Shown: in pieces, positions 33,144 through 36,199 of the stretch
Layout of the letters: each line of letters starts with the position of its first letter
Position numbering within the stretch: the first letter of the stretch is position 1
Source: Methyloversatilis sp.
Lineage (GTDB): Bacteria > Pseudomonadota > Gammaproteobacteria > Burkholderiales > Rhodocyclaceae
DNA length: 64,000 bases
Direction of reading: 5' to 3'
Assembly (NCBI GenBank): GCA_017984755.1
Contig: JAGNYW010000011.1
Location: 20,205 to 84,204, forward strand
Notes under the pieces: model-generated
Seen by the model: the letters and a program-made list of their open reading frames with translations, nothing else
The model's database searches: none
Told to the model about the DNA's origin: nothing
Program-made: the position numbers and the translations under genes

Positions 33144-34673
33144 ATGTGCGGAATACTCGGCGTCGTTGCCACTTCACCCGTCAATCAGCTGTTGTACGAC
33201 GGCCTGCTCGTGCTGCAACACCGTGGCCAGGACGCAGCAGGCATCGCCACTGCGCAGGGCCAGAAATTTCACATGCACAAGGGCTCCGGTCTGGTGCGCG
33301 ACGTGTTCCGTACGCGCAACATGCGGACGCTGCTGGGTGACTGGGGCATTGCGCACGTGCGCTACCCGACCGCCGGGTCGGCCTACAACGCGGCCGAGGC
33401 ACAGCCCTTCTACGTCAATTCTCCGTTCGGCATCGTGCTTGCGCACAACGGCAATCTGACCAATTCCGAAGAGCTGAAGGAAGACATGTTCCGCACCGAC
33501 CTGCGGCACATCAACACCACGTCCGACTCGGAAGTGCTCCTCAACGTGCTCGCACACGAAATGATGCAGGCGCTGAGCGACCGTCCGACCTTCGACCACC
33601 AGACCGTGTTCCGTGCCGTGGCCGGTGTGCATCGGCGTTGTCGCGGTGCCTACGCAGTGGTTGCGATGATTGCCGGCTTCGGTCTGCTGGCTTTCCGCGA
33701 TCCGTACGGCATCCGCCCGCTGGTCATCGGTACGCACGAGACGGAAGCGGGCACCGAATGGCTGGTTGCTTCCGAAAGCGTCGCACTCGATACGCTGGGT
33801 TTCAAGCTGTTGCGCGACATCGCGCCCGGTGAAGCGGTGCTGATTTCGCCGGAGGGCACCATGCAGTCCCTGCAGTGCTCCGCGCATCCGACCCAGGCAC
33901 CCTGTCTGTTCGAGTATGTCTATCTGGCTCGCCCTGATTCGCTGATGGACGGGGTGTCGGTCTACGAATCACGCGTCAAGATGGGCGAATTTCTGGCCCA
34001 CAAGATCCAGCGCGATCATGGTGACCTGCAGATCGATGCCGTCATCCCGATTCCCGATTCGAGTCGCCCCTCGGCGATGGAACTGGCACGCGTGCTCGAC
34101 GTGCCGTACCGCGAAGGTTTCGTGAAGAACCGCTATATCGGCCGTACCTTCATCATGCCGGGCCAGGCCGTGCGCAGGAAATCGGTGCGTCAGAAGCTGA
34201 ATGCCATCACCCAGGAGTTCAAGGGCAAGAACGTGCTGCTGGTCGATGACTCGATCGTGCGCGGTACGACCAGCCAGGAAATCGTCGCGATGGCGCGCGA
34301 AGCGGGCGCCAACAAGGTTTACTTCGCGTCGGCAGCACCGCCGGTGCGCTTCGCGAACGTCTATGGCATCGACATGCCGACGCGTGACGAGCTGATCGCC
34401 TCCAACCGGTCCGACGACGAGATCCGCGTGGCCATCGGTGCCGACGAGCTGATCTATCAGACGCTGGACATGCTAAAGGCATCGATCATCGCCTGCAACC
34501 CGGCGATCGACCGCTTCGAAACGTCCTGCTTCGATGGCAATTACGTCACCGGCGATGTAACCGCTGCCTATCTCGACGGTGTCGAGAACCAGCGCAAGGG
34601 TGCGCCCAGACAGTCGGAGGACGAAAGCGGTCAGCTCGACCTGAATCTGGTCACGTCGGAAGAAAACGCCTGA
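33144..34673 (+). CDS. purF: Amidophosphoribosyltransferase
   Basis: A 509-residue enzyme making phosphoribosylamine, the first step of purine synthesis. Cys2 (MCGILGVV) becomes the N-terminal nucleophile of the glutaminase domain, and the PRPP-binding motif [14 protein letters not shown] lies near 365-378. Length and layout are normal, without a propeptide. Confidence 0.97.
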
Positions 34674-34774
34674 CGCGATGGCGACATGACTTCGTGGCGG
34701 CATCCCTGATCTTGTGACGGGCATTCCCGATATCCGGCTTGACCGTCGCAGCGACCGGGCGTTAATGTCCTGAT

Positions 34775-34860
34775 ACGCGCCGATTTGAACCCAGCTTGCG
34801 GGCGCGCGGGTCAGTGGCTTCGGTGAAGCTGTCGATCCGGACAAATACGGCTAAAGCGGC
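34775..34860 (+). promoter_or_regulatory. SAM-II riboswitch aptamer with an extra hairpin, metZ leader
   Basis: The core elements of the SAM-II (metA/SAM-alpha) aptamer are in order: P1 arm CGCGC (34776-34780), loop CGATTTGAACCC with the conserved GATTT, GCTTGC (34794-34799), P1 partner GCGCG (34802-34806), and ACAAATACGGCTAAAGC (34841-34857) with the conserved AAAT and GCTAAA. GCTT can pair with AAGC, and CC (34791-34792) with GG (34858-34859), to form the P2 pseudoknot. Between the P1 3' arm and the AAAT segment is an inserted hairpin (CGGGTC/GATCCG outer, GCTTC/GAAGC inner), as in the long-loop SAM-II variants. It lies 208 bases upstream of metZ, a known SAM-II target class. Confidence 0.85.
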
Positions 34861-34891
34861 GAAACGAATGCGTTCCCGAACCCGTTTTGCC
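34858..34891 (+). promoter_or_regulatory. Predicted antiterminator of the metZ riboswitch
   Basis: GGCGAAACG at 34858-34866, directly after the aptamer, is repeated exactly in the 3' arm of the terminator (34897-34905). The upstream copy can therefore pair with the terminator's 5' arm (34883-34891; 8 Watson-Crick pairs and 1 G-U). Its first two G residues are also used by the SAM-bound pseudoknot, so binding of SAM should favour the terminator. Confidence 0.65.
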
Positions 34892-34918
34892 TCGCAGGCG
34901 AAACGGGTTCTTGTTTTT
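34878..34918 (+). terminator. Rho-independent terminator of the metZ leader
   Basis: A perfect 14-bp stem (one G-U pair), arms 34878-34891 and 34897-34910, with the 5-base loop TCGCA, is followed by TTGTTTTT. It lies between the SAM-II aptamer and metZ, so it most likely acts as the expression platform and would also stop read-through from purF. Confidence 0.92.
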
Positions 34919-34984
34919 GGGCGCCGTTTTCCGCCCTTGTTTCCGACACACGATTGCCGGCGATTGCGCCGGCTGGAGTAGAGC

Positions 34985-36199
34985 ATGAGCAGTTCCGACC
35001 ACAAGCCGTCCGCGTCGACCGACCGTGACGCCATCGGGTACGACCCGGAAACGCTGGCCGTCCGCGCCGGCATTGAACGCAGCCAGTTCGGCGAACACAG
35101 CGAAGCCCTTTTCCTCACATCGAGCTTCGTGTTCGGCAGCGCAGCCGAGGCGGCTGCACGTTTTTCAGGCGCGACGCCGGGCAATGTCTATGCGCGCTTC
35201 ACAAACCCGACCGTCACCATGATGCAGGATCGTCTGGCTGCGCTCGAAGGCGCAGAGGCGTGCGTCGCGACCAGTTCCGGCATGTCGGCGATCCTGTCGA
35301 TGGTGATGGCGCTGCTCAAGAGTGGCGACCACATCATCGCCTCGCGCAGCATCTTCGGTTCGACGCAGCAGCTTTTCAGCAATTACTTCGAGAAGTTCGG
35401 GATCATCACGACGCTGGTCGATGCGGCCGACATCGAGGCTTACCGCGCCGCAGTGCAGCTTAATACGAAGCTGTTCTTCATCGAGACGCCTTCGAATCCG
35501 CTGACCGAGGTGATCGACATCCAGGCGGTGGCCGACGTCGCGCATGAGGCCGGCGCGCTGCTCGCGGTCGATAACTGCTTCTGTTCGCCGGCGCTGCAGA
35601 AACCGATCGAACTTGGCGCGGACATCATCATTCATTCCGCCACCAAGTACCTCGACGGTCAGGGCCGTGTGCTCGGCGGCGCGGTGTGCGGCCGCAAGGC
35701 GGAAATGGACGAGGTGCTGCGCTTCCTGCGGACCGCCGGGCCGACGCTGTCACCGTTCAACGCATGGATCATCCTGAAGGGGCTGGAAACGCTGTCGATC
35801 CGCATGGATGCACAGTCGGCAAAGGCACTCGAACTGGCGCGCTGGCTCGAGGCGCAACCGTGGGTGGACCGCGTTTTCTATCCGGGTCTCGAATCGCATC
35901 CGCAGCACGCGATCGCCATGCGGCAGCAGAAGTCCGGCGCTGCCGTGGTGGCCTTCGAGGTTAAGGGCGAACGCGACGAGGCATGGAAGCTGATCGATTC
36001 GACCCGCATGCTGTCGATCACCGCCAATCTCGGTGACACCAAGACCACGATCACGCATCCGGCAACCACCACGCACGGCCGCATTTCGCAGGACGCGCGC
36101 GACGCATCCGGCATCCGCGACAGCCTGATCCGGCTCGCCGTTGGTCTGGAGTCAGTGGCCGACATGCAGCGCGACCTGTCGCGCTGGCTCACCGTCTGA
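34985..36199 (+). CDS. metZ: O-succinylhomoserine sulfhydrylase
   Basis: A 404-residue PLP enzyme of the Cys/Met metabolism family that makes homocysteine directly from O-succinylhomoserine and sulfide. It shows ETLAVRAG near the N-terminus, the YARFTNPT motif, and the PLP lysine in [16 protein letters not shown] (about residue 220). Cystathionine gamma-synthase relatives share the fold; the purF-metZ order and SAM-II leader favour MetZ. A GGAG lies 7 bases before the ATG. Control by the upstream SAM riboswitch is likely. Confidence 0.92.

Follow-up and report, generated by a model that had tools for sequence, protein, structure and literature searches.

The metZ leader of this Methyloversatilis genome is very likely a SAM-II riboswitch that carries a P3-like hairpin and works as a transcriptional OFF switch for metZ, where the SAM ligand, the direction of control and the use of the antiterminator registers are predictions read from the sequence. 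It is very probably an RNA switch placed before a methionine-making gene, predicted to sense S-adenosylmethionine and to stop transcription when this compound is abundant. SAM-II identity, the metZ target and a terminator/antiterminator platform are each supported as predictions by the evidence below. The window, which is the whole 64,000-nucleotide stretch of DNA that was analyzed, contains the following features.

33144-34673, + strand: purF, upstream of the leader and on the same strand, ending about 100 bases before the aptamer
34739-34768, + strand: promoter-like pair, TTGACC (34739-34744) and TAATGT (34763-34768), with the transcription start placed near 34775
34776-34781, + strand: P1 5' strand, paired with 34801-34806
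34782-34787, + strand: GAUUUG (GATTTG), third strand of the SAM pocket, its role assigned by alignment to the available text of PMC6061858
34791-34799, + strand: P2 5' strand, with GCUUGC (GCTTGC) at 34794-34799 and C34791-C34792 as a two-pair extension
34801-34806, + strand: P1 3' strand (sequence and alignments)
34807-34842, + strand: inserted P3-like hairpin, stems 34807-34812/34834-34839 and 34816-34821/34825-34830
34843-34846, + strand: AAAU (AAAT) strand, taken to face P1 (sequence and alignment)
34849-34859, + strand: candidate antiterminator register A, 10 pairs with 34882-34891, U34852 bulged, excluding P2 completely, -11.8 kcal/mol
34850-34859, + strand: P2 3' strand, GCUAAAGC with G34858-G34859 (sequence and alignments)
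34858-34866, + strand: candidate antiterminator register B, GGCGAAACG, proposed in the preliminary description, 9 pairs with 34883-34891, two-base overlap with P2, -11.7 kcal/mol
34878-34910, + strand: intrinsic terminator hairpin, 5' arm 34878-34891 and 3' arm 34897-34910 (terminator scan and fold)
34911-34918, + strand: U-tract (sequence and terminator scan)
34985-36199, + strand: metZ, O-succinylhomoserine sulfhydrylase, 404 amino acids (NF006003, 704 bits, cut-off 522)

The SAM-II aptamer core is read at window positions 34776-34859 as P1, the GAUUU third strand, the P2 pseudoknot and AAAU. The preliminary description had claimed all core strings in this order, an extension of P2 by C34791-C34792 with G34858-G34859, and metZ as the next gene; the sequence bears out the first, the four bases are able to pair, and the NF006003 match settles the third. 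The P1 stem and the P2 pseudoknot strands, whose 3' strand contains GCTAAAGC at 34850-34857, stand in the correct order upstream of a methionine/SAM gene. According to the available text of PMC6061858, the third-strand U's, the UU of P2 and UAAA contact SAM in SAM-V, and the site is very similar in SAM-II. All these ligand-site bases are present in the leader when the SAM-V contacts are transferred with the numbering matched in this analysis. The core pattern with the insert matched in 2 of 398 genomes of the phylum, including this one, and a reversed control pattern gave zero matches among the phylum genomes listed.

GAUUUG is invariant across 58 aligned SAM-II leaders, which were selected partly by that very string. 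This set was picked from 87 non-redundant aptamers, and the search pattern fixed the P2 strings, not P1. P1 and P2 are nearly invariant in the 58 sequences and no pair is changed on both sides; therefore, the alignment neither supports nor opposes their pairing. The covariation that the preliminary description expected of P1, P2 and the inserted stem is accordingly found in the inserted stem, and the first two are uninformative either way. The 84-nucleotide aptamer folds no better than shuffled sequence as a single strand (z 0.07) in a program that cannot draw pseudoknots. RNAalifold, which has the same limit, draws an alternative helix instead of P1 and P2 on whole genus leaders, and that helix was rejected.

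The extra two-part hairpin between the P1 3' strand and AAAT, also part of the preliminary description, is upheld by both folding and covariation. The 36-base insert after P1 folds as a two-part hairpin of -15.1 kcal/mol (z -2.6), and 5 of 200 shuffles were as good. Among 12 distinct genus leaders (alignment A1), both-sided changes occur in the outer stem at alignment columns 39-67, 40-66 and 42-64 (RNAalifold), so that the hairpin sequence changes and the pairing is kept. Of 113 distinct inserts of at least 20 bases among the matches listed, 109 form one spanning hairpin, where dinucleotide shuffles lead to an expectation of 53, and the mean z of these inserts is -2.7. The hairpin occupies the position where SAM-V carries P3: a SAM-V-type stem-loop between P1 and the A strand is present at 34807-34839, a resemblance in position only.

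A function of the hairpin itself, such as binding a protein or a second signal or tuning SAM affinity or folding speed, is unlikely. It would fit the retention of the hairpin in the metZ leaders of all 13 genomes of the genus, its gain or loss in metX leaders of the same genus, and the conservation of pairing over sequence. However, the loops show no apparent common sequence in the alignments of the 12 genus leaders and of the 58-sequence set, and canonical aptamers without the hairpin precede the same genes in relatives. In the preferred reading, the hairpin would stack near the P1 end and lie outside the switch, a place and a neutral role that are both predicted. In metX leaders of this one genus, an inserted hairpin was observed in five genomes (L212, L215-L218) and was absent in eight, this one included (L148-L155, L197, L219, L221-L224). 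These metX leaders with and without the hairpin provide a natural comparison for its role.

Detection by Rfam was poor. The covariance-model search put forward in the preliminary description fails at the Rfam cut-off, as RF00521 (SAM-II) gives the leader 18 bits against a cut-off of 36, covering the 5' half only (E 0.077 for 341 bases), probably because of the inserted hairpin. No Rfam family reaches its gathering score anywhere in the window. The long-loop variant suggested alongside, RF01726, matched 1 of 14 control genomes but nothing in this one, and this identity was rejected. A scan of 34660-35000 with all families at E up to 10 gave no match to a SAM-V model. In 150 genomes of the order, RF00521 matched 66 at E up to 0.001, and just 26 were above its cut-off. 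A home-built model, R1, was made from an alignment (A2) that includes the window's own leader; its score of 65.8 bits for this leader is circular because the leader is in the training set. R1 matches 108 of 150 genomes in the same kind of draw of the order. Among the best 150 R1 places, RF00521 covers 0 of 40 of insert length (at least 62 bases) and 82 of 110 shorter ones, a set that includes some metK-type elements (e.g., G445:C39:26184) and in which some long members may have long first loops instead. In addition, 18 insert-bearing loci among the matches listed were scanned against all of Rfam at gathering level, and no family matched in any.

The insert-bearing element lies before metZ, in the same place, in all 13 Methyloversatilis genomes examined, this one included. 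In alignment A1, there is little or no variation in the core, GGCGAAACGA and the terminator 5' arm, and the insert varies. CTTGAC is found in 13 of 13 genus leaders and is followed at the same spacing by TAATGT (11), TAGTGT (1) or TAAGGT (1). A promoter scan of the leader gave nothing above threshold, and the promoter-like pair falls below it. These data bear on a very improbable explanation, in which the hairpin constitutively ends the purF transcript coming from upstream, sits beside a decayed aptamer and regulates nothing. The end of purF at 34673, close upstream on the same strand, would agree with this, but purF and the aptamer are separated by the conserved promoter-like pair, and the genus shows no variation in the aptamer core. 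In addition, metZ would be silenced by a terminator 74 bases upstream of its start if there were no switch.

The same genome has a canonical SAM-II before metX (29 bits with RF00521, below the cut-off) and an interrupted one before metH, both genes being assigned by NCBIfam, and most genomes of the genus have three SAM-II. The metH copy (L198 1217-1485) is interrupted in the P2 3' strand by an element of about 270 bases with 32-base inverted ends that are 91% complementary. The uninterrupted element was observed before a metH-like frame in six genus loci (L213, L214, L220, L225-L227).

Aptamers were gathered from relatives and from the genome scan as a sample of at least 121 distinct aptamers. 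The search gave at least 135 regex rows, of which 11 had no P1 by the rule used. Nine of these were dropped as chance matches (seven from unrelated phyla), and two were kept as the rest of the core fits, namely L077, where the regex started too early, and L120, which has no clear P1. Removal of duplicates left 121 distinct aptamers, and 89 have a terminator within 150 nucleotides among the matches listed, including 12 metZ leaders of this genus. The first genes after 103 related aptamers among the matches listed, with the genus metZ leaders excluded, include 44 MetX and 24 metZ-type; these 103 proteins derive from 108 aptamers, five of which had no open frame. The remaining 32 of the 121 leaders among the matches listed have no terminator by the rule used, including named Legionella and Undibacterium, and may act otherwise. 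Insert-bearing SAM-II without a terminator by this rule was seen in Legionella-like gammaproteobacteria (L036, L077 and L088, Legionella; L038, Tatlockia), and in L036 the gene that follows most resembles metN (TIGR02314, 377 bits, below its cut-off).

The terminator of the metZ leader has 14 contiguous pairs (15 in the fold) and a stability of -25.3 kcal/mol (z -6.6), and it is followed by TTGTTTTT. One pair is G-U, so the "perfect 14-bp" hairpin of the preliminary description has the right number of pairs and is not strictly perfect. The sequence GGCGAAACG occurs twice, at 34858-34866 just after the aptamer and at 34897-34905 within the terminator 3' arm, which is the exact repeat reported there. 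The terminator 5' arm AACCCGTTTTGCC is present in 13 of 13 genus leaders, whereas the 3' arm differs at three positions, with A or G opposite U. Such a contrast between a constant 5' arm and a variable 3' arm would be expected of a 5' arm that also has another pairing partner.

Comparison across leaders makes the P2 3' strand a candidate partner of the 5' arm. TTTAGC is complementary to GCUAAA; among the matches listed, 25 of 89 leaders have it in the 5' arm or loop of the terminator, against 0 of 648 background terminators; for the 3' arm or loop, the counts are 1 of 89 leaders among the matches listed and 4 of 648. At least eight pairs with the P2 3' strand can be formed by the 5' arm in 58 of 89 leaders and by the 3' arm in 5 of 89 (among the matches listed), compared with 46 of 648 background 5' arms. 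The excess of 58 of 89 over the background indicates that P2 with SAM bound would compete with the antiterminator for the same strand. The Fisher p-values of about 1e-25 to 1e-34 should not be read at face value because the leaders are related and independence is overstated; the contrast between the 5' and 3' arms is thus the better argument. The energy limit for terminators was -9 in leaders and -12 in the background; 2 of the 89 leader terminators fall short of -12. A duplex-energy test of the P2 3' strand against the terminator arms was not discriminating (11 of 89 leaders beat 95% of the background), in our opinion because the background is GC-rich, and it gave way to the counts of words and pairs, in which the 3' arm serves as inner control. 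Methyloversatilis has TTTTGC in place of TTTAGC, and this word pairs with the P2 3' strand when U34852 is bulged, as in register A.

Registers A and B are equally stable; of the two, it is register A that is seen again in leaders outside the genus. It is possible, although the less favored course, that the aptamer is as described and the antiterminator is register B only, the genus having departed from the general betaproteobacterial platform. The invariance of GGCGAAACGA in genus leaders and the equal stability fit this, the centroid of the antiterminator region shows register B, and ligand-free folds at some lengths join register B with an alternative helix, GCCGAUUUG/CAAAUACGGC. On the other hand, an overlap of two bases with P2 would make SAM control weak except with a long-lived P2 extension, register A has the wider recurrence, and the minimum-energy fold of 34847-34896 shows register A. 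Minimum-energy folds of growing length mix both registers with other conformations, and for the antiterminator region the fold is no more stable than that of shuffled sequence (z -0.58). The preliminary claim that the leader forms either an antiterminator or a terminator is thus supported comparatively as a platform, while its particular antiterminator shares just two bases with P2 and has an equally stable competitor that recurs outside the genus.

The preferred mechanism, with both registers available, is as follows. When SAM is bound, P1 and the P2 pseudoknot would hold the strand GCUAAAGCGG. With this strand held, the terminator would fold and transcription would stop near 34918. In the absence of SAM, GCUAAAGCGG (register A) or the overlapping GGCGAAACG (register B) would pair with the terminator 5' arm. 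Occupation of this arm would allow RNA polymerase to read on into metZ. Such a leader is a compact, testable attenuator in which a single strand would serve both the aptamer and the antiterminator.

SAM-II attenuation in betaproteobacteria is not new, as it was already known to Barrick and Breaker (2007), and the preliminary description's view of it as unusual does not hold. The available text of Corbino et al. (2005) describes SAM-II as an OFF switch found mostly in alphaproteobacteria with a few cases elsewhere, many with terminators, and that of Meyer (2009) lists Alpha-, Beta- and Gammaproteobacteria. The leader shares P1, the P2 pseudoknot, GAUUU, AAAU, GCUAAAGC, a place before met genes and the frequent terminator with RF00521 (SAM_alpha), and differs from it by the hairpin inserted between P1 and AAAU. 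SAM-V is reported to share its core and SAM site almost entirely with SAM-II and to have a P3 stem-loop at the P1 3' end and then As facing P1, but it controls translation, and P3 has 3 bp in the solved RNA. The long-loop relatives (RF01726) have longer loops but, in the available text, are from Bacteroidetes and marine sources; Weinberg (2010), as far as its available text goes, places long-loop variants in Bacteroidetes and metK motifs in Rhodobacterales and Chlorobi. The S. meliloti metZ SAM-II leader (sRNA RZ) also precedes metZ and is predicted to terminate transcription in a SAM-dependent manner in the accessible part of a 2022 paper; it is from an alphaproteobacterium and is likened here by description, not by sequence.

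Leyn et al. (2014), in its available text, describes, for betaproteobacteria, an orphan element named "metXZ" that precedes metX or metZ in a single copy per genome, and reports SAM_alpha in Rhizobiales and Rhodobacterales only. The element would agree with the present leaders in genes and bacterial group, in six conserved blocks with 1-4 and 2-6 pseudoknot pairing, and in a downstream terminator, as far as that text describes it. It differs in being described there as new, with no ligand named, and in its single copy, where this genus mostly has three SAM-II. The metXZ element is most likely SAM-II, judged from the text description in Leyn et al. (2014) and not from its alignment, and this orphan leader would thereby gain a likely identity and ligand. 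Among open-licence papers, metXZ was found together with a riboswitch only in Leyn et al. (2014), none equating metXZ with SAM-II was found, and none combined SAM_alpha, riboswitch and betaproteobacteria. One published paper states, in its available text, that the P3 helix is absent from SAM-II, having taken its SAM-II sequences from RF00521. This suggests that the statement rests on Rfam sequences from a model blind to P3-bearing members.

On balance, P3-bearing SAM-II is probably a widespread beta- and gammaproteobacterial subclass that bridges SAM-II and SAM-V, is unseen by RF00521 and uses the P2 3' strand as antiterminator. It would be part of a larger betaproteobacterial set that includes a metK motif with GAGUU and an altered P2, which is not in Rfam, is probably translational in some genera and would fill the metK gap of Leyn et al. 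(2014), whose available text leaves metK, metY and metNIQ in betaproteobacteria without a known methionine regulator. Even within one genus, the aptamer occurs both with and without a third helix, which makes a natural series.

Of 30 metK loci fetched (L228-L257), 25 have a SAM-II-like motif before metK, 13 of the 25 being from this genus. This genome's own copy lies at L199 1493-1572 (+ strand), before metK at 1623-2786 (TIGR01034), and scores 20.5 bits with RF00521 (E 0.43), below the cut-off. In 17 distinct rows of 18 aligned, P1 shows double changes from C-G to U-A in three and from G-C to A-U in one. The third strand is GAGUUAA in nearly all, and P2 is invariant as GACAACUUGC/GCUAAAGCGUC, unlike ordinary SAM-II P2. 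A model of the motif, R2, matches 82 of 150 genomes, where the weaker places are ordinary SAM-II. Ten loci with the motif had no Rfam match on the element at E up to 1, and the possibility that the metK leader is a tmRNA was dismissed. Translational control is suggested in Methyloversatilis, where the GCUC that follows the motif faces a GGAGC ahead of the metK start; in some other genera, a hairpin and U-tract follow the motif instead, as read by eye. A metK motif of this kind was not found described in the available text of Weinberg (2010) or Leyn et al. (2014), and it is a candidate new subclass that perhaps acts on translation. In L117 (7181-7260, - strand), an insert-bearing ordinary GAUUU-type SAM-II without a terminator by the rule used lies directly before metK (TIGR01034).

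RF02424 (Bp2_287, "Burkholderia sRNA") has 29 places at E up to 0.001 in 150 genomes, only one of them above the family cut-off, and all 29 overlie an R1 SAM-II match on the opposite strand. In alignments, its consensus, once reverse-complemented, reads like a SAM-II leader followed by the terminator, and it corresponds to the opposite strand of window 34746-34913. RF02424 thus appears to be a SAM-II leader and terminator on the wrong strand, in which case a catalogued "sRNA" family needs re-annotation.

Tandem SAM-II as such is already known. In five leaders (L273, L282, L284, L285 and L287, near 1280-1570), an ordinary SAM-II with a terminator is followed by a metK-type element before a small frame. 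The third strand in L282 and L284 is GAUUUAA, between the ordinary and metK types, and a MATE transporter lies further downstream of the tandem leader in L282.
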